64,000 nt of DNA from positions 1 to 64,000 of the forward strand of contig CALFBI010000024.1 in assembly GCA_937951675.1 (NCBI GenBank), written 5' to 3'. The number at the start of each line of letters is the position of its first letter. The first letter of the stretch is position 1. The stretch is from an uncultured Verrucomicrobiales bacterium (GTDB taxonomy: Bacteria > Verrucomicrobiota > Verrucomicrobiia > Verrucomicrobiales > Akkermansiaceae). Shown here piece by piece: positions 27,791 to 46,053 of this stretch. Under the pieces are notes generated by a model, which saw only the letters and a list, made by a program, of their open reading frames with translations, ran no database searches and had not been told where the DNA came from. Both the position numbers and the translations under genes were made by a program.

Positions 27791-27824
27791 GGCGCCTCTT
27801 TCCCATAAAGAGAGCGCCTTTTTT
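27791..27824 (+). terminator. Intrinsic terminator after trxA
   Basis: GGCGCCTCTTT pairs with AAAGAGAGCGCC (one bulged A) around CCCAT, giving an 11-bp stem followed by six T. It lies 21 bp after the trxA stop and reaches the stop codon of the convergent alpha-2-macroglobulin gene. Confidence 0.85.
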
Positions 27825-30800
27825 ATTCATCGCTTTCAGCGGCTTCTGCTACCTTCACTCTTTGGCTCTGAGAATTCCCTCTAAGCTCTGGTGCATACAT
27901 TGCTTCAAGCTTCGTCGGGAGTGCTCCGAAGGAGCCCGGCGTCTGAGCTCTTAGCTCATAAACCAAACGGTGCTTCCCTCGCTGCAGAGCTCTTAAGTAA
28001 TGGTTTACCTTTGACTTCCGCCACTCGACGTAGCTCCCAATCGAATTGTAATAATACCCGCTTCGAGTTTCGAGAGCTTCGAATCCTGCTGGCTTAGGGT
28101 CTTCGAGAAGAAGGTATTCGTAATCATTCTTACTATCAATAATGAGCTCAACCTCGATCAGGTCTCCGGAACGAACTTCAGCGCCATCTTCGATCAACTC
28201 TTTACGAACCGACTCCACCTTCTTCATTATTTTCTGTCCGTTTCGGTCAAGCGACACGACTTCTTTTTGTTCCTTGATGACCCGTCGATACCGTCGCTCT
28301 ACCTTTAACTCGAGGCCCGCTTTGGGAATATGGTCTTCCAAAGTAAAGACCTCTACCTCTGCGTTGAAATAAAGAGGGGACTTCCCTTTTTTACGAATCT
28401 CAAGGGTATGCTCTCCCCCGGTGAGAATATCGCCTGAGACTTTCACCACAGGGTTAAAGGTGAAAAGGTTCTCTTTCGAAAGAGACTCCTTCCGAATCAC
28501 TTCCCCATCCAATCGAATTTCGACTTCAAGCTCTGGAGAAAGTTCTCCACTCGCCTGTGCGTAATCCGAAAGAGCCTCGATACAATAAGCACTGTCACGT
28601 GTTGAATTCCAATAAGTGGCATTTTTACGATTATTAAGAAGATATTTCGCCATACCAGAAGCTTGCGCGCTATCTGGCTTCATCTTTGCCAACAATTTCA
28701 AATACCAGGCCTGCGCTTCGTATTCTGATCCATACCAATACCACCAGTAGGAACCGTGCGGCAACTCAAGATACGCGGTTTGATTTTCAGAATCTTGGAC
28801 GAGGTATTGCTCAATATTTTCAAGAACCAGATCTCTCTTCTCGACCTCACCACTCCGGTGCCACTCGAGCCCGAGTAGGCACTTCGCATACACAGGAAGG
28901 TCTCCCCTCCGCTCGTGTAACTTCGCCAACATCTCAGGCTGATCAACTCCAGCCTCTCCCAGCACCATCCGGACTTTTGCATCAATAGCTCGGACCTGGC
29001 GACGATGATTCGAGTCCTCTTCCGGCAAAAGGAATCGCTTCAACTCCTTCAACTCCTGATGCTTCAGCCAGGTAATGCCCTTCTTCAAATAAGGAACTTC
29101 TACTCCTAGCTCTTGAGCCTTTAAAAGACCGTGAATCACGACTGCTGTAGTATGACTGTAAGAACGCTCTTCCTTCCCCGAAAACCACCCCCAACCTCCA
29201 TCTGAGTTCTGCATTGATTCGAGTTTTTTCACCCCAGCGGCGACAAAGCGATCAACCTCTTGCACATCCCATACAGGGTTATCCCCGCTCCATTGCCCCC
29301 TCTTTTTTGTTTGAGGATCCAACTTCGCTTCCCGGATTTGCTCCAGGTCTAAATCCATCTTTCCTAACAAATTTCGCACAATGATTGTCGGAATGAAACG
29401 GTTCAAAGTCTGTTCGGTGCACCCGTGGGGGTATGAAACAAGGTAAGGAAGAGCCTCCACCAGAGATCCCGCGATCGTGGGTGAAAACCGACATTCTAAA
29501 AGAGACTCCGAAGCTCGTCGGCGTTCCGGAATCTGAAACATTATTTTAGTGGAACCTTGCTCCGAAGAAAGAGATCTACTCCAACTCTCCAGCCTTGGGA
29601 ACCCGTGCACGAGCACTGAAAAGGTTTTCTCAATTGCATCAGAATCATCTTTTCCTTCCGCAAGCATACGAATTTTCACCTCTCCCTCCTTCTCGGCGCG
29701 CACTCGCCAGTCAACCCGAACTTCCCCGCCAGGAGGAATGGTATGAAGTGGAGTCCTGTTCTCAAGAGCGACAACCGAACCTCCCTCCACTTCCATTCGC
29801 ACTCTCACCTCTTTGGCTTCGGGGTGGTAATTGTGCACGATGGCGCTCAACACAGCCTCATCGCGCTCGACGAAGAAACGAGGAGACTGGAGACGAATGA
29901 GAAGATCTTTAGACGTGATGACCTCTGCTTGAGCTTCCCCTACGTAAGCTCCATGCCCCATGGCCCACGCTCGAATTTTCCACGTCGTGAGATTATCAGG
30001 AAACTCGACTGGAATTTCGAGCTCCCCATTGGCATCTGTCTCGGCCTCGCCTAGCCATTTCACAAGGTCCGCAAAATTCGAACGGATCACGGGAGCGCTT
30101 CGAGGCTCCGCCCCTTCTTCAAGAATGGCTTCATCAGCTAAAGTGAGCTCAGAAGCATCTGCGAAAGGATCACTATTACCCAAAGATTTCGCCATACTGG
30201 AAGAAGGGGCCGAAACAAATCCAGCAGAAGCAAAAGGATCCGAATTAAATCTTTGTCGCATCCCTCCATAGAAATGCTTCATCCCAGGCCGCCCTTCGCG
30301 CAATTCTTGCGGAAAATACTTTTGCCTCACCAACCAATTCTCATAAGAAAGAGATCTTCGCATTGACCAAAAGGTCTGCTTTAACGCGACGAGTTGATAA
30401 GGGCTAATCGCTTCGAGACTCTTATCATAAATAGAGAGTGTAATACTCCCCTGATAAGGTTTCCCTTCCGGGTCGCTCAAACGAACCCGAATCGAACCTT
30501 TCTCTCCAGCCTTGTATTTCTGCTTTGAAGGAATGACTTCCATCGAAAGCAGTTTCTGACGAGGAGGGATTCGAACTTCGGCTGTTGCAAGCTTCATTTG
30601 TGTTTCTGAAACCGTCATCGCCTTCACAAAGAAATTCGGCTGATCTTCTGCGCGCACAGGAATTTCAATCACCTGACTATGACCTTCGAGTTGACGATAG
30701 AAAAAGCGTTCTTTCGAACCCGTCGATCTTGTTACCACCAGCACTCTTGAATTGGGGATTTTAGTCTGAATCAATACTCGAACCGTATCTCCAACAGAAT

Positions 30801-33726
30801 GAGTCGGATTCTCCACCGACAACTCAAGGGGACTAAAAACACCTTCACTCAGAGGATCCCTTCCCATTACTGAAATGACAGTCTCCGAAATAGATTCATT
30901 TCCGCTATCGTCTTTCAAAGTCACTTCCCAGCGGTATTGCCCTGCTTTTGAAACCTGATAAGAAAGCTCCCCGTCTCCTTTTGAATTCGTCATCACAGGG
31001 AAAGACTTCACCTTCACCTCATCGACCGTCTTATCAGCGCGAAGCCCCTTGATCCGGTAAAGGGTGGCCTCTCCCTTCGTCGCAAACCCGCGCTTCATTA
31101 AATTCTCAGCCCTTAATTTCAAAAAGGCTTCCTTCTCCGGGATCAAAAAACCTTTTTCGTGATACAGAACCGATTGGAAGGCAGAACCTCCTACTAACAC
31201 TTCTCCACTTGCCGCCACCATTCGCCGCGATTGATCCACCACCTCAACTTCGACTTGATAACGGCAATTCACCTTTCCGTAAACTCGTAAGGTCTCTGCT
31301 GTCGGCACCTGAACCTTCACCATCCCATCAGCATCGAGCTCTACTTCTTCTTCCAAAACGACCTCGCCCGACACCGGAGAGCTTGGGAAATAAGGGCGGC
31401 AAAAAGAGTAGCGCCGAGGCTCAAACCAGCTTCCGTATAACCAATCCCACTCTTCTACTGGGCGCCAAGTCCAATGATACGCATGACGCGTTATTTTCAC
31501 TTTGACCTTAGCCTGCGTGACTGGTGCTCCATGGAAATAAAGAGCCTTCACTACCACCGGAATTTCTTCTCCTAAAATCAGAGGCTTCGAAGGGGTCTCT
31601 ACCTTCACCTCATACTCGGGCTTCTCATACTCTTCGACTTGAAAGAAACCTTGCCCTAACCAATTATGTTTTTTCTTAGACCGACCTAGTGAAACGTTAT
31701 ACCGCCCCAAGGAAACGCCTTTAGGAATCTTCCATTGATACTGCACTCCCCCATAAGAATCCGCTCTCAACGGGACATCTTCGACAAGAAGATCTCCCCG
31801 TGGACTTTTAATACTCAGGTATGCCGTCTCTCCGGCAAATTCTGAACGTTCTCTTCCGACTAACCTCGGGCGCTGCACCCAGAATTTCAGGTTCACTTCT
31901 TGCTTCGGCTGATAAACTGGCCGATCACTTAAGAACTGAGTTTTCCAAGCCTCATCAATCTCATCATTAAAATCTTTATGATAAGAATATCGGTTAGTTA
32001 AGTCCGAAACCAAAAGAGCTCCACTTTGGGTCTCAGCAAGAATCTGCCACTCATAATTCCGATCCGGTTTCTGATTTTCTTTTTCTGCAAAACCTTCACT
32101 ATTTGTCTCTAACTCAAACGTTTTTGTCTTGGTTTTAAATTGAGGTTTTTTTTCGTTTTTTGCGGGAAGCCTTTCATAATGAACTCCCATTAAAGTAAGT
32201 TTCCCAACCCGTTTTTCGCCTCGATGAGCCCCCATTAGCTGATAACGATCTGTTCCGCCTCGCTTCCACTGAACCAATACCGAATCTGAAATCTGAATAA
32301 GAGTCCAAATAGGATCTGAATCACGCACCTGACATTTTAATAAGTAGAGCCCATTTTCTCGCTCTGGCGCGACGGTCGTTCCATTTGTGGGAAGGTGACC
32401 TTGCTTGGGCGTAAGTTTTTCCGACCACTTCTGGCTCTCTTCTAAAAAGCCTTTTCCTCTCCTATTAAAGAAGTAGTCAGCCATTTTAAAATCGGAGTTT
32501 CTTTTTTGTTTCAGCATCTCAAGTAAGACCTCCTTAAGATGCTCTCTTTTCATTTTCGACATCTCGAAATGAGCTTTTTTTGCATTTCGATAGTTAAAGG
32601 TCAGTTCCACTTCTCGACCTGCCACGAAAGTTTGCGGACTCGTCAACTGCATCCAATCTCCAGTCAATTGATCCAAAGAATCCTCGAATTCTTTGCGGCG
32701 CTCTTCAAAACGAGGAATGGCTTCTTCAAGAGCCTTCACTGCTCGTGGCAGCTCACTCTGCGCCAAGTATTTTACATATAAATGATTCACAGCCCAGTCG
32801 TGATTCTCCGCCCATTTCTCAAATCTCGCATGAGTATTCAAGTCCGCCGGTAAAGTGACATACTGTGGCTTCGCACCTCCTTCGAGGTGTAGCCACACTT
32901 TCGCGGGGTCGAACGGTAAATCATCGTTCCTAGAAAGTTCATTGCCTTGTTGATAAACTGAATTCAAAAACTCGGCCCAAATTTTCTGCACTTCTAGAGA
33001 AGCTTCTTCCCCATGCACTTTCACCGCTTCCTCCACTAACCAGAAGAAACGCTCAGCATCATTCTTAGCCTCTTTAAAGCGAACTGGTTTCCGGATCCAA
33101 TCAATCTCTCCATTCGGTAGCACCGGATGATAAGAATGAGCACTTAGGTTTTCTTGTTGAAAGGCAGGCTCTTTTTCGAGCGGGGTCAAATGATTCCAAC
33201 GATGGGAAAAAGAACCTCCCTGTTGAAATGCTACGAGCATGGCCTTATACCATTTCATTGAAGCTTTCGCCCCCTTCCCTTCTAACAAAATACGTATTGC
33301 CTTGATCCGGTCATGTTGACCCACATTCAAATGCTCCCCCTGCACTCGAGAATGCCCGCGATGAAAAACGCCATCCACGAGACGCCCCCAAGCGGGCAAT
33401 TTTTGATACACTTCTGCTACCGCAATATGAAAGCTTTCTTCTCCCTGACGGAGCTCTAACCACCGCTCAAGATCCGCATCGATATGAGCCTGCCCCCCTA
33501 AAGCCTTAGAGGCTACAAGATACTCTCTTAAATCAACCGAAGAACGAAAATCTTTCACCTCATCTAAGAGCTCTCTATAGAGGAGTGAGGCTTTTTTCCA
33601 GTTCTGTCGATTAACCTCAGCTTCAGCTTTTTCCCTTAAAGAACGAGCGTCAATCTCAGTAGCATCAACGGGATGAAGTGAAACCCATGAGAAGAGTAAA
33701 AATAAAACAAATTTAGGAGTCATCAT
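27823..33726 (-). CDS. Bacterial alpha-2-macroglobulin with intact thioester
   Basis: 1967 residues from ATG 33726, chosen because it starts a signal peptide (MMTPKFVLFLLFSWVSLHPVDA); the longer frame would run far into the preceding gene. Large periplasmic protease trap. MG-type beta domains fill the first two thirds; a variable, bait-like segment lies at about 1155-1215 with the repeated phrase NSDPFASA/NSDPFADA; then the A2M domain (NFADLVKWLGEAETDANGEL); the thioester CTEQ is at about Cys1436 within YPHGCTEQTLNRF; and a helical TED toroid follows (NSDGGWGWF). It is longer than E. coli YfhM (about 1650). The C-terminus has no lipobox or membrane helix, and the N-terminus is not a lipoprotein signal. 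No penicillin-binding protein 1C gene, the common partner, is next to it. Confidence 0.9.
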   Translation of the reverse strand: MMTPKFVLFLLFSWVSLHPVDATEIDARSLREKAEAEVNRQNWKKASLLYRELLDEVKDFRSSVDLREYLVASKALGGQAHIDADLERWLELRQGEESFHIAVAEVYQKLPAWGRLVDGVFHRGHSRVQGEHLNVGQHDRIKAIRILLEGKGAKASMKWYKAMLVAFQQGGSFSHRWNHLTPLEKEPAFQQENLSAHSYHPVLPNGEIDWIRKPVRFKEAKNDAERFFWLVEEAVKVHGEEASLEVQKIWAEFLNSVYQQGNELSRNDDLPFDPAKVWLHLEGGAKPQYVTLPADLNTHARFEKWAENHDWAVNHLYVKYLAQSELPRAVKALEEAIPRFEERRKEFEDSLDQLTGDWMQLTSPQTFVAGREVELTFNYRNAKKAHFEMSKMKREHLKEVLLEMLKQKRNSDFKMADYFFNRRGKGFLEESQKWSEKLTPKQGHLPTNGTTVAPERENGLYLLKCQVRDSDPIWTLIQISDSVLVQWKRGGTDRYQLMGAHRGEKRVGKLTLMGVHYERLPAKNEKKPQFKTKTKTFELETNSEGFAEKENQKPDRNYEWQILAETQSGALLVSDLTNRYSYHKDFNDEIDEAWKTQFLSDRPVYQPKQEVNLKFWVQRPRLVGRERSEFAGETAYLSIKSPRGDLLVEDVPLRADSYGGVQYQWKIPKGVSLGRYNVSLGRSKKKHNWLGQGFFQVEEYEKPEYEVKVETPSKPLILGEEIPVVVKALYFHGAPVTQAKVKVKITRHAYHWTWRPVEEWDWLYGSWFEPRRYSFCRPYFPSSPVSGEVVLEEEVELDADGMVKVQVPTAETLRVYGKVNCRYQVEVEVVDQSRRMVAASGEVLVGGSAFQSVLYHEKGFLIPEKEAFLKLRAENLMKRGFATKGEATLYRIKGLRADKTVDEVKVKSFPVMTNSKGDGELSYQVSKAGQYRWEVTLKDDSGNESISETVISVMGRDPLSEGVFSPLELSVENPTHSVGDTVRVLIQTKIPNSRVLVVTRSTGSKERFFYRQLEGHSQVIEIPVRAEDQPNFFVKAMTVSETQMKLATAEVRIPPRQKLLSMEVIPSKQKYKAGEKGSIRVRLSDPEGKPYQGSITLSIYDKSLEAISPYQLVALKQTFWSMRRSLSYENWLVRQKYFPQELREGRPGMKHFYGGMRQRFNSDPFASAGFVSAPSSSMAKSLGNSDPFADASELTLADEAILEEGAEPRSAPVIRSNFADLVKWLGEAETDANGELEIPVEFPDNLTTWKIRAWAMGHGAYVGEAQAEVITSKDLLIRLQSPRFFVERDEAVLSAIVHNYHPEAKEVRVRMEVEGGSVVALENRTPLHTIPPGGEVRVDWRVRAEKEGEVKIRMLAEGKDDSDAIEKTFSVLVHGFPRLESWSRSLSSEQGSTKIMFQIPERRRASESLLECRFSPTIAGSLVEALPYLVSYPHGCTEQTLNRFIPTIIVRNLLGKMDLDLEQIREAKLDPQTKKRGQWSGDNPVWDVQEVDRFVAAGVKKLESMQNSDGGWGWFSGKEERSYSHTTAVVIHGLLKAQELGVEVPYLKKGITWLKHQELKELKRFLLPEEDSNHRRQVRAIDAKVRMVLGEAGVDQPEMLAKLHERRGDLPVYAKCLLGLEWHRSGEVEKRDLVLENIEQYLVQDSENQTAYLELPHGSYWWYWYGSEYEAQAWYLKLLAKMKPDSAQASGMAKYLLNNRKNATYWNSTRDSAYCIEALSDYAQASGELSPELEVEIRLDGEVIRKESLSKENLFTFNPVVKVSGDILTGGEHTLEIRKKGKSPLYFNAEVEVFTLEDHIPKAGLELKVERRYRRVIKEQKEVVSLDRNGQKIMKKVESVRKELIEDGAEVRSGDLIEVELIIDSKNDYEYLLLEDPKPAGFEALETRSGYYYNSIGSYVEWRKSKVNHYLRALQRGKHRLVYELRAQTPGSFGALPTKLEAMYAPELRGNSQSQRVKVAEAAESDE

Positions 33727-34036
33727 GATTGAAAGAAGAGTTCGGTTTGCGTTTCCGGACAGAAGATCGCCCCCCACGAGCACGTCGCAAGGGAGTGAAA
33801 ATCTCATCAGCGCCGCAGGATTTGATTTCATGTGTCATGCGCATCAATTCGCCTAGTTGGCCTTGAGGGAAACCACGTTCTGAAAACCAGGCCAGGTATT
33901 CTGGAGGAAGGTCATAGATAGGAACGCCTGAGGGAGGGCATTCCTTAGGCCCAAATCTCCCGAAAGGCATCATTGTATTCTGAACCTCTTTTAGATACTG
34001 GCGTAAATCTTCGCGATCAATGTCTGTAAAATTCAT
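33713..34036 (-). CDS. DUF3820 family protein
   Basis: 107 residues. The core TMMPFGRFGPKECPPSGVPI and LPPEYLAWFSERGFPQGQLGEL matches the DUF3820 family (putative quorum-sensing-regulated virulence factor), which has an exonuclease-like association in other genomes but no settled function. The C-terminal 30 residues are basic and low-complexity (RRARGGRSSVRKRKP), absent from most members. Its end overlaps the start of the alpha-2-macroglobulin gene by 14 bp, so the two are probably co-translated; a functional link is not obvious. Confidence 0.75.
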   Translation of the reverse strand: MNFTDIDREDLRQYLKEVQNTMMPFGRFGPKECPPSGVPIYDLPPEYLAWFSERGFPQGQLGELMRMTHEIKSCGADEIFTPLRRARGGRSSVRKRKPNSSFNHDDS

Positions 34037-36266: not shown

Positions 36267-36515
36267 CTAAAACGAATCACCTTTCTGATCCTCAAGGGTC
36301 TGCTGTGTTTTCACGTAAAGCCTTTCGACCTTTTCACGCGCCCAAGGGGTCCTTCTTAAGAATTTGAGACTCGATTTAATGGAAGGATCATAAGTAAAGC
36401 AGTTCACCCTGATACGATCGGCCAGCTCTTCCCAACCAAAATGGGATTCAAGGAAAACCAGCATTTTTTCGAGAGTCACTCCTTCACGGAAACGGTTAAG
36501 GGATTGATCAGACAT
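36267..36515 (-). CDS. VF530-type DNA-binding protein (DUF2132)
   Basis: 82 residues, the whole length of the family. GVTLEKMLVFLESHFGWEEL and FTYDPSIKSSLKFLRRTPWAREKVE match the VF530/DUF2132 signature closely. The small helical protein is annotated as double-stranded-DNA-binding from a structure; its biological role is not established. It is divergent from nuoG, and the Rex-type operator lies in the gap between the two. Confidence 0.88.
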   Translation of the reverse strand: MSDQSLNRFREGVTLEKMLVFLESHFGWEELADRIRVNCFTYDPSIKSSLKFLRRTPWAREKVERLYVKTQQTLEDQKGDSF

Positions 36516-36623
36516 TTAATGAAGACCGACAATATATCCACCTCCCTTACAAAGAAAAGCCCTGAAGAAAAAACCTCCTGGGAAACCTTTGGAGCAAGGA
36601 CTTCAGGAGCCCTTCACAACACT

Positions 36624-36641
36624 TTGTGAAAAATTTCACAA
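36624..36641. promoter_or_regulatory. Rex-type operator upstream of nuoG
   Basis: TTGTGAAAAATTTCACAA fits the Rex consensus (TTGTGAA, four bases, TTCACAA) at every defined position. It is the core of a longer perfect inverted repeat from 36619 to 36646 with 13-base arms and a 2-base centre. A further TTCACAA half-site lies at 36613-36619, so half-sites begin at 36613, 36624 and 36635, exactly 11 bp apart. The site is 78 bp before the nuoG ATG. Rex represses respiratory genes when NAD+ dominates and releases DNA on binding NADH. Confidence 0.75.
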
Positions 36642-36719
36642 AGTGTCCTTGCCGCGTCGCTATAGGCTGGTCATATTGCCAGCACGCCGCGCAGGTGCGG
36701 TAGATTTTTGTATTTTAGC

Positions 36720-38474
36720 ATGAGCGATCAAGCACCGGCAAACACTGAAACAGCGCTACCAAAGGATTTGGCAGCGGAGAAGGGTCTCGTCAACGTCCAG
36801 ATTGATGGAGCATGGATCCAGGTTCCTCGCGGAACTCGTATGATCGAAGCTTGTAAAATGGCGGAGAAAGAGGTGCCGCATTATTGCTATCACCCGAAAC
36901 TAACCTCTCCCGGGAATTGCCGGATGTGTTTAGTTCAAATGGGAATGCCTCCACGCCTCGGCCCAGGCCAAGACCCATCCTATAACGAAGAAGGCTTCCA
37001 AGATATTGGTTGGATGCCACGCCCCGTGATTGCTTGCGCTAACACCGTTTCCGAAAACATGGGAATCCGCACCACTGGTGACTTGGTGGAAAACTGCCGC
37101 AAGGGAGTGATGGAGTTCCTCCTTATTAATCACCCTCTTGATTGCCCGATCTGCGATCAGGCCGGTGAGTGTCGCCTCCAAGAATTTTCAGTTGATCACG
37201 GAAACGGAATTTCTCGTTTCCGCGAAAGCAAAGTTAAAAAGCCGAAAAACGTTCCAGTCGGAGACCGGGTTCGTCTTGATGATGAACGTTGCATCATGTG
37301 CAGCCGCTGTATTCGCTTTATGGATGAAGTTGCGGAAGATCCCGTTCTCGGGTTCACCCAACGCGGAACTCATACCACCGTGACTGTTCACCCCGGACAA
37401 AAGCTTAATAGTAACTATTCTCTTAACACGGTCGATATTTGCCCAGTAGGAGCTTTGACCTCGGAAGACTTCCGCTTCCAAATGCGTGTTTGGTTCTTAA
37501 AAGAAACCAACACTATCGACACCAACTGCGGAACAGGTTGTAACACAACCGTTTGGACCAGAGGGAATAAAATTTTCCGGATCACACCTCGTCAAAATGA
37601 CGAGGTGAATTCGACTTGGATGCCGGACAGTCATCGCCTCAGCTTTGACCATGTTTCGGCGGATGACCGCTTAACGGAAGTTCTTTTGAGAAAGGAAGAT
37701 GGCCAGCATCAAGTCAGCACTTGGGAAACCGCTATCACCCAATCAGCAGAAGCCTTAAAAGCTTTCTCAGGTGAAGAAATCGCCGTAATTGGGTCCGCAA
37801 ACCAAACCAACGAGGAACTCTACCTTCTTGGCCGTGTCGCTCAATCGCTCAACACTTCTCACATCTCGACTGTAGGCCGCATCGGGGAATCTGACGGAAA
37901 ACTCATTTCCGCAGATCGTAATGCGAACACGACTGGAGCTCAACTTATCTGGCAAATCACTCCAGACGAACAACTTACTTCCATCCGCGAAGGGGTCCAA
38001 CAAGGACGAATCAAAGCCCTCATTTGCTCTCAAGAAGACCTTCTTTCAGAGGCTGGCTTCACAGAGGAGGATCTCGAAAAACTGGAATACCTCGTAGTTA
38101 CGGCGACCAATGCTAATGGCACGGCTCGTCACGCCAACCTGGTCCTCCCTGCGGCTACCGCATTTGAGAAACGCGGCTCTTTGGTGAATGTTGCTGGACG
38201 CCTGCAGAAACTTAACCCTGCCCTCTTAGTCCCTGGAGATGCACGGGATGATTGGCAAATCCTTAATACTCTTTTCGCTAGCATTTCAGGAGAAGACGGC
38301 TTTGGATCACTCACTTCTGTCTTTAAAGAACTTACGTCTCAGACCGAATCCTTCTCAGGGCAAACTTATAGCTCCATTGGAGACCAAGGGGTCGTCATTA
38401 CTCAAACGGGAGTTCACATTCCCCTTATCGAACAAGAAGCGACCCGCAAATCTTCCGGGCAAATTGTAGGTTAA
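36720..38474 (+). CDS. nuoG: NADH-quinone oxidoreductase subunit G
   Basis: 584 residues from ATG 36720 (a TTG four codons earlier is less likely). Peripheral-arm electron-transfer subunit of complex I. The N-terminal [2Fe-2S] site is HYCYHPKLTSPGNCRMCL; the next iron-sulfur segments are HPLDCPICDQAGECRLQEF and ERCIMCSRCIRF with VDICPVGAL. The molybdopterin-like domain is shortened (many NuoG proteins reach 700-900 residues) and its entry has only CGTGC, so the extra N7 cluster is probably missing. It heads a run of eight nuo genes; nuoA-F are not in the window. Confidence 0.95.
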   Translation: MSDQAPANTETALPKDLAAEKGLVNVQIDGAWIQVPRGTRMIEACKMAEKEVPHYCYHPKLTSPGNCRMCLVQMGMPPRLGPGQDPSYNEEGFQDIGWMPRPVIACANTVSENMGIRTTGDLVENCRKGVMEFLLINHPLDCPICDQAGECRLQEFSVDHGNGISRFRESKVKKPKNVPVGDRVRLDDERCIMCSRCIRFMDEVAEDPVLGFTQRGTHTTVTVHPGQKLNSNYSLNTVDICPVGALTSEDFRFQMRVWFLKETNTIDTNCGTGCNTTVWTRGNKIFRITPRQNDEVNSTWMPDSHRLSFDHVSADDRLTEVLLRKEDGQHQVSTWETAITQSAEALKAFSGEEIAVIGSANQTNEELYLLGRVAQSLNTSHISTVGRIGESDGKLISADRNANTTGAQLIWQITPDEQLTSIREGVQQGRIKALICSQEDLLSEAGFTEEDLEKLEYLVVTATNANGTARHANLVLPAATAFEKRGSLVNVAGRLQKLNPALLVPGDARDDWQILNTLFASISGEDGFGSLTSVFKELTSQTESFSGQTYSSIGDQGVVITQTGVHIPLIEQEATRKSSGQIVG

Positions 38475-38492: not shown

Positions 38493-39626
38493 ATGGATCC
38501 TTTTTTCATCTTCATTACGGTCGTAAAAATCATTACGATCACTTTCTTGGTTGTTTTGCCGATGGTCGCTTACGCCGTTTATGCAGAACGCCGGTTCTCG
38601 GCCATCCTCCAGGATCGGGTCGGACCAAACCGCACCATGATCCCGCTTAAAATTTTTGGAGCGAAAAAAGATCTTAATCTTCCTCTCGGCGGACTAACGC
38701 AACCGATTGCCGATGGGATCAAATTCCTTCTTAAAGAGGATTTTACCCCGAACCATGTGCGCAAGCCCTTTTACTGGCTAGCTCCAGCGCTTACAATGGT
38801 TCCTTCTTTGGTGACTGTCGCCGTCGTTCCTTTCGGGAGTGATCTTCGCCTTGGCGACCGCATCATCCCTCTTTCCGTGGCCGATATTAACATTGGCCCT
38901 CTCTTTGTCTTCGCCGTTTCTTCTCTCGCTGTTTACGGAATCACTCTTGCGGGGTGGGCCTCAAACTCCAAATATTCTTTCTTCGGAGGGGTTCGCGCCT
39001 GCGCTCAAATGATTTCTTATGAGATTGCGCTCGGACTTTCGATTATTCCGATTCTTCTCATCATGGGAGAGCTCAACCTCAATGAGATTGTAAAATACCA
39101 GGCCGCTAATGGTTGGTTGATTTTCCCATTCTGGGGAGAAGGCCTCAGCTTGAAAGGCTTCCTTTTACTCATCCCCTGCCTCATCTCTTTCATTATCTTC
39201 ACCGTTTCGATCTTTGCTGAAACGAACCGGATGCCTTTCGATTTACCAGAATGTGAAACGGAGCTCGTTGGTGGTTACCATACCGAGTATTCTTCGATGA
39301 AGTTTGCCCTCTTCTTCTTAGGTGAATACGCTGCCATGATTGTTGGGTCAGCGCTTATCGTCACCCTTTTCCTTGGAGGCTGGTCTCTACCTTTCGGATG
39401 GAGTGAATCTGAATTCATGTCCTCAGGAAGTATTCCGGCGGCCTTGATTCACGTCGGATGTTTCCTTACGAAAGTCATTGCCTTCATTCTTTTCTTCATC
39501 TGGGTTCGCTGGTCTGTGCCACGGGTCCGTTACGACCAACTGATGAAACTCGGGTGGGTGGTCTTCTTTGAAGCCGCACTCGTTAACGTTTTCCTCACCG
39601 CTTTCATTCTTTACTACGTTCGCTAA
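38493..39626 (+). CDS. nuoH: NADH-quinone oxidoreductase subunit H
   Basis: 377 residues with eight to nine membrane helices. It forms the quinone-entry chamber at the joint between peripheral and membrane arms. Characteristic stretches are YAERRFSAILQDRVGPNRTM (first helix to loop), ADGIKFLLKEDFTP, the acidic loop FAETNRMPFDLPECETELVG, and GYHTEYSSMKFALFFLGEY. It begins 18 bp after nuoG. Confidence 0.97.
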   Translation: MDPFFIFITVVKIITITFLVVLPMVAYAVYAERRFSAILQDRVGPNRTMIPLKIFGAKKDLNLPLGGLTQPIADGIKFLLKEDFTPNHVRKPFYWLAPALTMVPSLVTVAVVPFGSDLRLGDRIIPLSVADINIGPLFVFAVSSLAVYGITLAGWASNSKYSFFGGVRACAQMISYEIALGLSIIPILLIMGELNLNEIVKYQAANGWLIFPFWGEGLSLKGFLLLIPCLISFIIFTVSIFAETNRMPFDLPECETELVGGYHTEYSSMKFALFFLGEYAAMIVGSALIVTLFLGGWSLPFGWSESEFMSSGSIPAALIHVGCFLTKVIAFILFFIWVRWSVPRVRYDQLMKLGWVVFFEAALVNVFLTAFILYYVR

Positions 39627-39665
39627 GGCGACTCATCCCTTTTACCTTCTACTATTTTTCATCCT

Positions 39666-40235
39666 ATGGCAGAGATCAAAGTCATCAAACGCCCGCAGCT
39701 GTCTCTTGGTGACAAGCTCTATCTTCCTGCGATCGCGAAGGGGTTATTTTTAACGTTCACGCATGCAATCAGCTCCCTACGAGGAACAACGCGAGGAGCA
39801 AAGAAAATGAGATCCTCCGGACTCGGCGTTACAATGCAATATCCTGAGGAAAAATGGGATGATAGCCTTCCGGAGTATTACCGTGGAGTTCCCGCTCTTG
39901 TTACCAACGAAGAAGACCGCGAAAAGTGTGTCTCTTGCCAACTTTGTGAATTCATCTGTCCTCCAAAGGCGATCAAAATCACTCCTGGTGAAATCCCTTC
40001 AGACGACCCTTGGGCGAAAGTTGAAAAACGCCCACAAGCTTTTGACATCGACATGACCCGCTGCATTTATTGCGGAATGTGTGAAGAAGTCTGCCCCGAA
40101 GAAGCTATTTTCCTACGTAAAGACTATGTTGTCACTGGAAGTGACCGGAGCGAAATGGTTCACGATAAGGACCGCCTTTACGAAATTGGAGGCAAGCGCG
40201 TTGGTCTTGTTAACAAATGGAATGACCTGAAGTAA
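39666..40235 (+). CDS. nuoI: NADH-quinone oxidoreductase subunit I
   Basis: 189 residues. It carries the N6a and N6b [4Fe-4S] clusters that pass electrons towards N2: CVSCQLCEFICPPKAI and CIYCGMCEEVCPEEAIF, each CxxCxxCxxxCP. An amphipathic N-terminal region (KGLFLTFTHAISSLRGTTR) attaches it to the membrane arm. The insertion between the two cluster motifs, including SDDPWAKVEKRPQAF, is within the family range. It starts 39 bp after nuoH. Confidence 0.97.
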   Translation: MAEIKVIKRPQLSLGDKLYLPAIAKGLFLTFTHAISSLRGTTRGAKKMRSSGLGVTMQYPEEKWDDSLPEYYRGVPALVTNEEDREKCVSCQLCEFICPPKAIKITPGEIPSDDPWAKVEKRPQAFDIDMTRCIYCGMCEEVCPEEAIFLRKDYVVTGSDRSEMVHDKDRLYEIGGKRVGLVNKWNDLK

Positions 40236-40279
40236 TCAGCTTAATCTCTGTTCCGAATCACTTTAAATCACTCACTCTC

Positions 40280-40870
40280 GTGCCCACTCTTTTCTTCTAT
40301 TTCTTCGCCATCCTCGCTATTTCGGGGGCTGTTGCGCTTGTTGTCTTCCGTAACCCTGTCTCGAGCGCCCTTTCGATGGTCGCTTCTTTTGTTGGATTCG
40401 CAGGACTCTTTATCGGACTCAATGCTTACTTCATAGGTGTCATCCAGATCCTTGTTTATGCAGGAGCGATCATGGTTCTCTTCATTTTCATCATCATGTT
40501 GTTGGACCTAAAGAAAGAGGAGTCTAAAAAGTTCCCTATTACGACCGTGATTGGAGCACTTCTTATTCCAGGACTTTTCATGCTCCAACTCGTTGGGATC
40601 TTCGGAAACTTTGATGACAAGAAACATCAAGCCCTCGACCTCCCGGCTTCTGCCGAGCACTACCAAGAAGAAGCTCCTAAAATCGCAGCAACTCTCTCCG
40701 GAGCTAATGGTGAAGCGCCTTCTCTTCCTGATGTCAATCTCATCGGCCAAAAGCTCTTTACCGAGTTTAACTTCCCTTTCCAAGTGATGGGAATTCTCCT
40801 CCTCGTCGCCACTATCGGCGTCGTGGTTCTCTCAAAGCGTTCTCCATCCACATCAGCTTCTGATCAATAA
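40280..40870 (+). CDS. nuoJ: NADH-quinone oxidoreductase subunit J
   Basis: 196 residues from a GTG start. Membrane subunit with five helices. The third helix is typical: VIQILVYAGAIMVLFIFIIM contains the pi-bulge region next to the E-channel. A soluble loop of about 60 residues between helices 4 and 5 is longer than in E. coli. It lies 44 bp after nuoI and 3 bp before nuoK. Confidence 0.95.
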   Translation: MPTLFFYFFAILAISGAVALVVFRNPVSSALSMVASFVGFAGLFIGLNAYFIGVIQILVYAGAIMVLFIFIIMLLDLKKEESKKFPITTVIGALLIPGLFMLQLVGIFGNFDDKKHQALDLPASAEHYQEEAPKIAATLSGANGEAPSLPDVNLIGQKLFTEFNFPFQVMGILLLVATIGVVVLSKRSPSTSASDQ

Positions 40871-40873
40871 GCC

Positions 40874-41194
40874 ATGGCTACCTTACACGAATACCTCTTT
40901 GTCTCAGGGCTCCTTTTTGCAATTGGCCTTGCTGGCGTGATTGCTCGCCGCAACATCATTGTCATCTTCATGTGTTTAGAAATGATGCTGAGTGCCGCGA
41001 ACCTGACTCTTGTTGCTTTTTCTCGATTCAATACCGCCGAGACAGGCCTTCCTGATTACGACGGTCAAATGCTCGTCTTTTTCATCATCACCGTGGCCGC
41101 GGCAGAAGTGGCCGTCGGACTGGCCATTATTGTGGCTCTTTACCGTGCTCGTCAGACGGTCAACGTAAACGACCTTACTAGCCTACGCGGATAA
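40874..41194 (+). CDS. nuoK: NADH-quinone oxidoreductase subunit K
   Basis: 106 residues and three membrane helices, the usual form of the Mrp-type small subunit. The two buried glutamates that take part in proton transfer lie in [17 protein letters not shown] and [19 protein letters not shown]. It follows nuoJ by 3 bp and precedes nuoL by 41 bp. Confidence 0.97.
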
Positions 41195-41235
41195 CTCCCC
41201 TTTTTCGGAACTTTTCTTTTCTACTCGACTGATCC

Positions 41236-43110
41236 ATGGACATCACTTGGTTACTTTTTTTACTCCCGATCGCCTCTGCTGCGATCGGCTGGCTCCTCCT
41301 GAATAAACAACACACCCTGGCCGCTTATCTTTCGACAGCGTCAGTGATTGCGACCTTTGTGATTTCAGTCAGTATGCTGCTTGCCGGTAAAGATACACAG
41401 GCTAGCTTTAACTGGGCGAGTGTAGGTGACTTCCACGTGAAGATCGGCTTCATGGCTGACCAAATGGCACGAGGCATGATGATTGTTGTGACCGGAGTGG
41501 GAATGCTCGTCCACGTCTTCTCACTGCCTTACATGAAGAAAGACGCGGCAAAAGCCCGTTACTTCGCTTGCCTTTCTCTCTTCATGTTCTCCATGACGGG
41601 GATTGTTCTTTCCGATAACTTCTTGATGACCTTCATGTTTTGGGAGCTTGTTGGGTTGAGTTCTTACCTTTTAATCGGCCACTGGTATCAGAAGGAATCA
41701 GCAGCAGATGCCGCTAAGAAAGCCTTTTTGACAAACCGGATTGGTGACTTTGGGTTCATGATCGGGATTCTCATGATTTGGGGAATCGCAGGAAGTGTTT
41801 CCTTCGCCGGAATCGCAGATTGGGCCTCACATGTAGGAACCTTGACTCCTCTTATGACCGCGACACTTGGGGCAGCGACTCTTTGTATCTTCTGCGGAGC
41901 CATTGGTAAGTCAGCACAGATGCCTCTCCACGTTTGGCTTCCAGACGCGATGGAAGGCCCTACTCCAGTTTCCGCTCTCATTCACGCCGCTACGATGGTT
42001 GCGGCTGGGATTTTCATGATGGTGCGTTTCTTCACCTGCTTTGAAACGGGTGAGGCTCATGGCGCACCGGAAGCAGACCATGCGGCCGTCTCTCTCATTC
42101 CTTCTTTTGCTTGGACGACGATCGCAGTGATCGGAATCGTAACTTCTCTTGCGGCAGCCTTCATGGCGACTCAGCAAGATGATATCAAAAAAATCCTCGC
42201 TTATTCGACGCTCTCTCAACTCGGTTACATGGTGATGGCCGTTGGCCTCCAAGGCTCCGAGGCGAGCATGTTCCACCTCTATACTCACGCTTGGTTCAAA
42301 GCACTCCTCTTCCTCGGTTCTGGTGCGGTCATCTACGCTTGCCATCACGAACAAAACATCTGGAAAATGGGCGGCCTTCTTAAAAAGATGCCTATTACCG
42401 CGATCACCTTCCTCATCGCTACTCTCGCTCTTGCCGGATTCCCTATGACGGCCGGGTTCTTCTCCAAGGAACAAATTTTACACGTCGCTAATCATCAAGG
42501 AGGCATGCTCTTTTTCATCCCGACCGTATTGGTTGCCATCTTAACGACCTTCTACATGTTCCGTCTCGTATTCGTTGTCTTCTTCGGTAAAAACCGGAGT
42601 GAAAACGCAGAACACGCCCATGAAGTTGGCCCGCTGATGTTCATCCCTCTCATTGCTTTAACCGTTATGGCTGTGATTGCCGGTTACGAAGGGATTGCGG
42701 GGCAAATGGCTCCTCTCTTCCATCACGAAAAAGTGAATTTTGGGAGTATTGAATTCCTTTCCTCAATTGGGGCTTTCATCGTTGGCCTCGTCCTTGCCTT
42801 TGTCTTCTACTTCAATAAAGACGAAGATAAACTTTCTGGTAACGTTCTCTCAAAGGTTTTTGCCAACAAGTTCTACATTGACGAATTTTACGCGAAACTC
42901 GTTCGTGTTTTCCAAGACGCGGTAGCCGCGGTTGTTCACTTCTTTGATGAAATTTTAATCGGTGGAATTCTCGTGGGAGGCCTCAGCCGTAGTGCTGCTG
43001 GATTCGGCGCACTTTTCCGCCGTCTCCATTCTGGAAACCTTCAAGGATATGCGACTCTCTTCGGAGCAGGAGCACTCCTGATCATTTATCTTACTGTCTT
43101 CGTCTTTTAA
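41236..43110 (+). CDS. nuoL: NADH-quinone oxidoreductase subunit L
   Basis: 624 residues. Distal antiporter-like proton-pumping subunit. The glutamate of helix 5 is in FMFWELVGLSSYLLIG; the helix-7 lysine and its neighbours are in GKSAQMPLHVWLPDAMEGPT; the helix-8 region is ALIHAATMVAAGIFMMVRF; and the long lateral helix and C-terminal anchor are present. Everything expected for a working pump is retained, unlike NuoM. It starts 41 bp after nuoK and ends 3 bp before nuoM. Confidence 0.97.
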   Translation: MDITWLLFLLPIASAAIGWLLLNKQHTLAAYLSTASVIATFVISVSMLLAGKDTQASFNWASVGDFHVKIGFMADQMARGMMIVVTGVGMLVHVFSLPYMKKDAAKARYFACLSLFMFSMTGIVLSDNFLMTFMFWELVGLSSYLLIGHWYQKESAADAAKKAFLTNRIGDFGFMIGILMIWGIAGSVSFAGIADWASHVGTLTPLMTATLGAATLCIFCGAIGKSAQMPLHVWLPDAMEGPTPVSALIHAATMVAAGIFMMVRFFTCFETGEAHGAPEADHAAVSLIPSFAWTTIAVIGIVTSLAAAFMATQQDDIKKILAYSTLSQLGYMVMAVGLQGSEASMFHLYTHAWFKALLFLGSGAVIYACHHEQNIWKMGGLLKKMPITAITFLIATLALAGFPMTAGFFSKEQILHVANHQGGMLFFIPTVLVAILTTFYMFRLVFVVFFGKNRSENAEHAHEVGPLMFIPLIALTVMAVIAGYEGIAGQMAPLFHHEKVNFGSIEFLSSIGAFIVGLVLAFVFYFNKDEDKLSGNVLSKVFANKFYIDEFYAKLVRVFQDAVAAVVHFFDEILIGGILVGGLSRSAAGFGALFRRLHSGNLQGYATLFGAGALLIIYLTVFVF

Positions 43111-43113
43111 ACT

Positions 43114-44556
43114 ATGTTACTTGCACTTGTTTTCATTCCTATTGCTGCGGCAATAGCCATCTGGGCTGGTTCTCCGGCTCGTTTGACTGCGATCGTGGCT
43201 GGGATTATCAATCTCGTCCTAGGTCTCATTGCGGCCTCTTCGTGGCTGACAAACCCCGAGATTGGGTCGGTGACTTATTCGGTTCTTAGCAAACCAGACA
43301 TCGCGCTTTCCTTTAGCCTCTATGATGGCATGAGCGTCGTTATGCTCCTCCTCTCCGTCATTGTTCTTGCGGCCGCTGTGTTCTCTGGACAATGCCCTGC
43401 AGGACGTGAAAAGCTTTGGTATTCCAACACCCTTCTTATTGCCGCAGGTGCGATTGGAGCCTTTCTTTCCGATGATCTCTTTTTCTTCTACGCTTTCCAC
43501 GAGCTGGCTTTAATTCCGACTTTCATCCTTATCGGAACCCTTGGTCGTCGTAACCGAAAAGCGGCGGCATGGAAGATTACAATCTACCTTGCCTTTGGCT
43601 CCATGGTGCTTCTCGCTGGTCTTCTCTGGCTCGTATCTGCCACAGAAGTCAGTTCATTAAGCTTCGACACCCTCCTCGCCGCCAGCATTCCAGGAGAAGC
43701 CCAAAAGGGAATTGCGGCCCTTCTCCTCATTGGGTTCGGGACGCTCATCTCCCTCTTCCCTTTTCACTCTTGGGCAGCCCCTGCTTATGCGAGTGCCCCA
43801 GCCCCAGTCGCGATGCTCCACGCAGGAGTATTGAAAAAGTTTGGCCTCTACGGTCTCATTCGCCTCTTCCCGCTGGTCAGTGAAGGCATGCAACACTGGT
43901 TGATCGTCCTCATTGTTCTCCTTCTTGGAAACATTATCTGGGTCGGCTTCGTGACTCTGAACCAAAAACGTCTCGATACGATGCTTGGAAACTCAAGTGT
44001 GATGCACATGGGGTATGTCTTTTTGGCAATCGCCGCTCTGATTGCCGCAGGGGGTGAAGGAAACTCACTCGCGATTCCGGCTGCAGTGACCCTCATGTTT
44101 GCACATGGGGTCTCAATTGCGCTGCTCTTTGCCCTCGCTGATAAAGTTGAAAAACAAACCGGCACTCTCGAGCTCCAAGAACTTGGTGGACTTGCCTCTA
44201 AAGCTCCGACTTTGGCCTTCTTCTTTGGACTCGCAGGAATGGCTTCTATTGGCCTTCCTGGATTAGCTAACTTCTCAGGCGAAATTCTCGTCTTCCTTTC
44301 AGGGTTTGCCAACTACGATCCGGCAAAAGGATTCGGCCCGGTGCAAATCGCAACGATCATCGCTCTCTGGGGAGTGGTCATTTCAGCAGTCTACATGCTT
44401 CGTGCTTTCCGTCAGACCTTCCAAGGCCCCGAAGCTTCTTCTGTGAAATCGGCCAAAAACCTCTCTCTTCTTGAGCTCGCACCCATCGGTCTCTTGACTC
44501 TCGCTCTCTTGGCAGTTGGGCTTTATCCCAACCTCATCCTTCAGCTTCTTAAGTAA
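43114..44556 (+). CDS. nuoM: NADH-quinone oxidoreductase subunit M
   Basis: 480 residues, about 14 membrane helices. Antiporter-like proton-pumping subunit. The helix-5 glutamate (AFHELALIPTFILIG), the helix-8 lysine (HAGVLKKFGLYGLIR) and the helix-12 glutamate (ANFSGEILVFLSGF) are present. The helix-7 segment reads GTLISLFPFHSWAAPAYASA: the lysine equivalent to E. coli K234 aligns with leucine and the WLPDAH phrase is altered. I recall related forms (HSWAPxGY) in Chlorobi and Bacteroidetes, so it may be a natural sub-family. It directly follows nuoL. Confidence 0.95.
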   Translation: MLLALVFIPIAAAIAIWAGSPARLTAIVAGIINLVLGLIAASSWLTNPEIGSVTYSVLSKPDIALSFSLYDGMSVVMLLLSVIVLAAAVFSGQCPAGREKLWYSNTLLIAAGAIGAFLSDDLFFFYAFHELALIPTFILIGTLGRRNRKAAAWKITIYLAFGSMVLLAGLLWLVSATEVSSLSFDTLLAASIPGEAQKGIAALLLIGFGTLISLFPFHSWAAPAYASAPAPVAMLHAGVLKKFGLYGLIRLFPLVSEGMQHWLIVLIVLLLGNIIWVGFVTLNQKRLDTMLGNSSVMHMGYVFLAIAALIAAGGEGNSLAIPAAVTLMFAHGVSIALLFALADKVEKQTGTLELQELGGLASKAPTLAFFFGLAGMASIGLPGLANFSGEILVFLSGFANYDPAKGFGPVQIATIIALWGVVISAVYMLRAFRQTFQGPEASSVKSAKNLSLLELAPIGLLTLALLAVGLYPNLILQLLK

Positions 44557-44574
44557 CTCGACTTTACCATCACC

Positions 44575-46053
44575 ATGCCTGCGTTCTACCTAGAAATCGC
44601 TCTTGTTGTTCTCGGCCTCGTCCTATTAATGGTCGAAGCCTTTGGCCCCTCGAAGTCGAAAACCTATCTCGGTTGGCTTTCTTTAACTGGAGTGCTCGCG
44701 ATTTTTGCGGCGCTCTTTACTGTCTGCCCTTCTGCCTCTTGCTCTTGTGATCAGCTCACTCGTTTTTATGAGTTTGATTCCCAAGCCAAGTTCTACAAAG
44801 GCTTTGCTCTTATCACCACCGCCCTCGTGATCCTTCTCAGCCTTGAATACCGCGGCACGATCAAGAAGTTCACTACAGGCACCGAAGAAGGCTCCGGAGA
44901 GTTCTACATTCTACCCCTCTTTGCTTGCGCAGGGATGATGCTAATGGCCTCAGCCAAAGACCTCATTTCGATTTTTGTCGCGATCGAACTCGTAACAATC
45001 ACTTTTTATATCCTCGTTGCTTACATGCGACGTAATGTTGGATCACTCGAAGCGGGAGTTAAATACCTCATTCTTGGGGCTCTTTCTACCGGTATTCTTG
45101 TTTATGGAATTGCCTGGATTTATGGAATAACCGGCACGACTGAACTTGCTCTCATTGCTGAACGCATTCCTTCTTTGGAAGGTTCTCGCGCCCCACTTCT
45201 CTTTGGTCTCGCCTTGATGGTCTTAGCGATCGGTTTCAAAATCGGAGCCGTGCCGATGCAACTCTGGATTCCGGATGTTTACCAAGGGGCTCCTACTCCG
45301 ATCACAGCTTTCCTTTCCGTAGGATCGAAAGCCGCCGGTTTTGCGGTCGCACTTCGCCTCTTTGAGCCATTCTTCGGAGCTTCTCTGACTTCTGGCCCAC
45401 TTCTCTCGCTTCTCCTCGTCCTCGCTGCTCTCACGATCTTGGTAGGAAATCTAGCAGCTCTTGCTCAGAAAAACTTCAAACGTCTCCTCGGCTATTCCTC
45501 GATCGCAAATGCTGGCTTCCTTCTTCTCGCCATGGCGGCATGGCAGCCTCAGGGTAGCGAAAGTGCCCTGAGCACCTACGAAGTGGTTTCATTCTACTTG
45601 ATCACCTACTTGATCATGACCATGGCCGCGTTCTTCTTCCTTGTGACCGTCTACAACACGACTGGGAAAGAAACGATTGCGAGCTTTAATGGCCTCGCTA
45701 AGCGCAACCCTCTCTTGGCACTCATTGGGACGATCATTTTGAGTTCACTCGCGGGCCTACCTCTCACTGCTGGGTTCTACGGTAAATTTTACGTCTTCAA
45801 GTCAGCAATCTCTGCAGCCTCGAGCGGTCACCCCGCACTCTGGTGGGCGATTGCTTTCGGCTTGGTTGGTGCTGCGGCAGGGTTTTATTACTACTTCCAA
45901 ACCATCCGTGCGATGTATTGGAATGACCCTAAAGACCCTTCGAAAATTCCCGTCAGTAAAATCAGCCTTGCTCTACTCGTCATAGCTGCACTCGCGCTTG
46001 TCGTCTTTGGGTTCTACCCTCAGCCGCTTTTAGACCTAGCTGCTGCGAAGTAA
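44575..46053 (+). CDS. nuoN: NADH-quinone oxidoreductase subunit N
   Basis: 492 residues, about 14 helices; third antiporter-like subunit, nearest the quinone site. The helix-5 glutamate is in ISIFVAIELVTITFYILVAY; the helix-7 lysine in IGFKIGAVPMQLWIPDVYQGAP, where the usual PFHLW histidine is glutamine; the helix-8 lysine in LSVGSKAAGFAVALR. It ends the run 19 bp after nuoM, followed by a strong terminator. Confidence 0.96.
   Translation: MPAFYLEIALVVLGLVLLMVEAFGPSKSKTYLGWLSLTGVLAIFAALFTVCPSASCSCDQLTRFYEFDSQAKFYKGFALITTALVILLSLEYRGTIKKFTTGTEEGSGEFYILPLFACAGMMLMASAKDLISIFVAIELVTITFYILVAYMRRNVGSLEAGVKYLILGALSTGILVYGIAWIYGITGTTELALIAERIPSLEGSRAPLLFGLALMVLAIGFKIGAVPMQLWIPDVYQGAPTPITAFLSVGSKAAGFAVALRLFEPFFGASLTSGPLLSLLLVLAALTILVGNLAALAQKNFKRLLGYSSIANAGFLLLAMAAWQPQGSESALSTYEVVSFYLITYLIMTMAAFFFLVTVYNTTGKETIASFNGLAKRNPLLALIGTIILSSLAGLPLTAGFYGKFYVFKSAISAASSGHPALWWAIAFGLVGAAAGFYYYFQTIRAMYWNDPKDPSKIPVSKISLALLVIAALALVVFGFYPQPLLDLAAAK

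Follow-up and report, generated by a model that had tools for sequence, protein, structure and literature searches.

What does the long palindrome ahead of nuoG bind, and how far does the control that it exerts extend? The window analysed here is a stretch of 64,000 nucleotides from an uncultured Verrucomicrobiales bacterium. At positions 36624-36641 it holds the 18-mer TTGTGAAAAATTTCACAA, a predicted Rex operator that fits the Rex consensus TTGTGAANNNNTTCACAA exactly, just as the original prediction held. The 18-mer lies within an extended inverted repeat (36619-36646) of layout 13+2+13. The earlier description of this repeat as 28 bp long and perfect is right for the two 13-nt arms, which are fully complementary; the central AA does not pair with itself, which leaves 26 of 28 positions. 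Downstream on the plus strand comes nuoG (36720-38474; its best NCBIfam model falls just under the cut-off), the first gene of the run presumed to be controlled, and then nuoH to nuoN (38493-46053, plus strand), named from gene order and sequence and presumably on the same transcript. The left neighbour is, as had been proposed, divergent: a VF530-family gene on the minus strand (36267-36515). This gene is probably not a Rex target, because the left flank of the operator is unconserved among relatives. Further to the left, a minus-strand open reading frame of 2002 amino acids (27823-33831) has, by eye, an alpha-2-macroglobulin-type look. Very probably, the palindrome ahead of nuoG is a genuine Rex binding site.

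The source genome (2.05 Mb in 28 contigs, 97% complete) contains exactly five perfect sites, against 0.01 expected from base composition, and the same pattern in reverse, taken as a control, is found a single time in 240 genomes. All five lie ahead of respiratory operons, beginning with nuoB, nuoD, nuoG, actA and atpB (NuoB, NuoD and AtpB were named by NCBIfam models over their cut-offs). The search for further copies of the 18-mer, which had been suggested as a check, thus yields four additional sites; these, and the promoter that adjoins the nuoG operator, had been missed in the earlier reading. actA encodes a multihaem cytochrome and the next gene a TAT-variant molybdopterin oxidoreductase-like protein, and so the locus is read as alternative complex III. 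The second suggested check, for a Rex homologue, finds a single one, in locus L001 (1036-1656, minus strand). It scores over the cut-offs of both PF06971 and the NCBIfam Rex equivalog, presents the winged-helix N-terminus (PF06971) at residues 6-52 and a Rossmann domain (PF02629) at 84-178, and matches solved Rex structures at E values of 3e-33 or better. The rex gene itself has no site with two or fewer mismatches among the matches listed.

Comparison with related loci indicates that the nuoG operator is widely kept. By their record titles these NuoG relatives belong to Akkermansiaceae, which bears out the presumed Verrucomicrobiota origin down to the family. The site is exact upstream of nuoG in 63 of the 90 relative loci scored, and the others have four to six mismatches at best. 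At most loci that lack it, NuoF is encoded immediately before nuoG in the same orientation, so that nuoG is there inside a longer operon. Four siteless loci without an upstream NuoF were inspected: L090, L098 and L115 are in genomes without a PF06971 match, and L042 (genome G013) is listed without one. Since most siteless loci either have NuoF upstream or come from genomes in which no Rex match passes the cut-off, we dropped them as counter-examples. Loss of the repeat in close relatives that keep the nuoG-N run had been named as one observation that would count against Rex control; among the loci inspected, no Rex-bearing relative with an independent nuoG operon head is siteless.

The co-occurrence of regulator and site was assessed in 240 genomes of the order, with PF06971 at its cut-off taken as Rex and only exact sites counted. 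At least one exact site is present in 203 genomes and none in 37. Rex and sites occur together in 185 genomes, sites without Rex in 18, Rex without a site in none, and neither in 37 (Fisher P = 3e-30, a statistic that ignores relatedness). Three genomes with sub-threshold PF06971 matches (G204, G224 and G233) have no site. Fourteen of the 18 site-bearing genomes without a Rex match are less than 90% complete. One of the other four, G244, has a single site with a GC-rich centre before an argB-like gene; this is the only exact site in its genus, g3 (same family), in which no listed genome has PF06971 over the cut-off. The NuoG tree, drawn from genomes other than those of g3, forces two separate Rex-less groups, and Rex would accordingly have been lost in two clades. 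Beyond the order, Rex domains are common and exact sites are found in only 8 of the 115 genomes drawn from the phylum (a single site in six of the eight), so the perfect-consensus respiratory regulon seems to be characteristic of this order. In one genome outside the order (G302, locus L297), a single exact site at 1501 stands just ahead of the rex gene of that genome, which hints at autoregulation.

The targets form a coherent set. Among 112 distinct sites, 110 precede genes of nuo, atp, actA, ndh2, polyprenyl diphosphate synthase, transaldolase or H+-PPase, a few of them named by eye from sequence (in L233, for example, an atpG-like gene, and in L268 a polyprenyl synthase). The two exceptions are L127, with an argB-like gene, and L254, with an RNA-binding protein. 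In L254 the site, at 177, lies before a gene for an RNA-recognition-motif protein, the only target in a Rex-bearing genome, among the sites read, outside energy metabolism and transaldolase. Genome G054 (L233-L245) carries 13 exact sites, and its nuoB, D, E, F, G, H, I and M each have their own. Its atp genes and actA also have operators of their own, as though the operator had travelled with the operons when they broke up. Taken with the Rex homologue, the five-site regulon, conservation and the joint loss of Rex and sites, which strongly support a Rex operator controlling complex I, the data suggest that the entire respiratory chain of this Verrucomicrobiota order is probably under a single NADH sensor.

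The promoter beside the operator provides insight into how Rex may act. At nuoG, the predicted -35 element TTGCCG (36649-36654, plus strand) begins after a gap of 7 bp, with the operator upstream, and the predicted -10 element CATATT (36672-36677, plus strand) follows at 17 bp. When 66 nuoG regions are aligned on the operator, little is conserved upstream beyond position -4; downstream, the TT at +25/+26 of a TTGC-type -35 never varies, and a -10 of the form CATA(G/T)T comes 17 bases further on. The 37 nuo and atp sites other than those of nuoG all carry TTGC, TTGA or TTTA at +23 to +25 (shuffled mean 3.2). Such a -35 accompanies none of the 16 sites at actA, polyprenyl synthase or transaldolase genes, which indicates two promoter layouts. 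In four Rex-less loci (L042, L291, L098 and L115), which form one clade and probably represent one loss of Rex, the operator has decayed to 5-6 mismatches in 14, and the -35, the 17-bp spacing and the -10 are unchanged. L291 is probably from the same genome as L090, because the genomes G166 and G248 share AtpB match coordinates. The nuoG promoter therefore seems able to work without Rex. All four loci keep the A/T centre of the former operator; this would fit a contact with the alpha subunit of the polymerase, although slow drift would look alike.

The sites, their targets, the Rex gene, the co-loss, and the position of the promoter with its retention after Rex loss are read from sequence; from them we infer Rex binding, the NADH response, the direction of control and the alpha-subunit step. 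At low NADH/NAD+, a Rex dimer would occupy the nuoG palindrome. Seated just upstream of the -35, it would stand in the way of RNA polymerase, perhaps because it masks the A/T tract otherwise contacted by the alpha subunit. A rise in NADH would release Rex, and nuoG to nuoN would be transcribed. The same operator before nuoB, nuoD, actA and atpB would tune complex I, alternative complex III and ATP synthase together. We consider it highly probable that the palindrome is the operator of the genome's single Rex, with this mechanism and this shared nuo, act and atp regulon. More tentative, and rather doubtful as a whole, is the idea that Rex works from one set position ahead of the -35, that the A/T centre is the alpha-subunit contact, and that the entire cassette was put before each piece of the broken nuo operons, as in G054.

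Rex might instead activate the nuo and atp promoters. In Streptomyces avermitilis the nuoA1 and atpI operators lie between and over the -35 and -10 (PMC5355995), unlike the nuo and atp operators here, upstream of the -35. This position, the 7-bp gap at nuoG and the -35 at a set distance in 37 of 37 other nuo and atp sites would suit activation. But the Rex-less clade keeps its -35, spacing and -10 while the operator decays, which argues for repression, and the sites of actA and polyprenyl synthase are found a short way ahead of the start codon, a repressor-like place, and lack such a -35. In addition, the nuo and atp operons of S. avermitilis are repressed by Rex, whose binding to DNA weakens with NADH (PMC5355995). 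Activation is therefore unlikely, and the Rex-less clade and the Streptomyces data favour Rex as a repressor relieved by NADH.

The original prediction went on to propose an extended operator of three half-sites, possibly bound by two overlapping Rex dimers side by side, and this part of it did not survive as the Rex operator for complex I did. The extra half-site TTCACAA (36613-36619, minus strand) is indeed there, giving half-site starts at 36613, 36624 and 36635. A scan of 123 sites, however, finds it exact at offset -11 in this nuoG site alone; the pair 36613/36624 is in everted order, and with every site and spacing taken into account the half-site does not exceed chance. Read as a second palindrome, 36602-36619 is the best candidate, with three mismatches in 14; chance is enough for this, since about 0.3 such palindromes carrying at most three mismatches would be expected in the scan (binomial estimate). 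A true double site does exist in a relative (G007, L251), where two exact sites at 1321 and 1344 lie 23 bp apart before actA, and paired operators are thus possible in principle. At nuoG the two-dimer arrangement is very unlikely, and the third half-site is best read as chance.

The palindrome also resembles the site of a Crp/Fnr-type regulator, responsive to cAMP or oxygen. Its half-site and spacing are those of TGTGA-N6-TCACA, and we take the 18-mer to fit the Crp consensus as well, a point that we counted for this reading. Yet HTH_Crp_2, the Crp/Fnr-type helix-turn-helix, was not detected in the genome at its stated completeness, while 14 of 14 control genomes were positive, which weakens the case; Rex and the sites, moreover, disappear together across the genomes of the order. 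A Crp/Fnr site is highly improbable here. A terminator or RNA hairpin can be set aside as practically negligible, as had been anticipated, for despite arms of 13 nt the loop would be only 2 nt, the neighbouring genes are divergent, a conserved promoter occupies the downstream flank, and the same 18-mer recurs ahead of unrelated genes.

Known Rex systems offer close comparisons. The S. avermitilis regulon has the same operator consensus and includes nuo, atp, ndh2 and hppA; it also takes in cyd and rex-hem, whereas the targets here include alternative complex III and polyprenyl synthase (PMC5355995). The S. aureus Rex site is TTGTGAAWWWWTTCACAA (cited in PMC5355995). Rex of Firmicutes (S. aureus, B. 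subtilis) is of the same protein family but governs fermentation and nitrate-respiration genes, none of which is seen among the sites read here. Among the listed titles and abstracts of the open literature we found no study of a Rex regulon in Verrucomicrobiota or with alternative complex III, and an earlier prediction may exist in the 2012 comparative Rex study (Ravcheev et al.). The regulator is thus already known; the order-wide regulon, of which we found no record in that literature, appears real and functionally coherent. It predicts that one NADH sensor would set complex I, alternative complex III and ATP synthase in this Verrucomicrobiota order, and that in relatives the same sensor would also set NDH-2 and quinone-tail synthesis. 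The natural losses of Rex offer a direct test of Rex action at the promoter.
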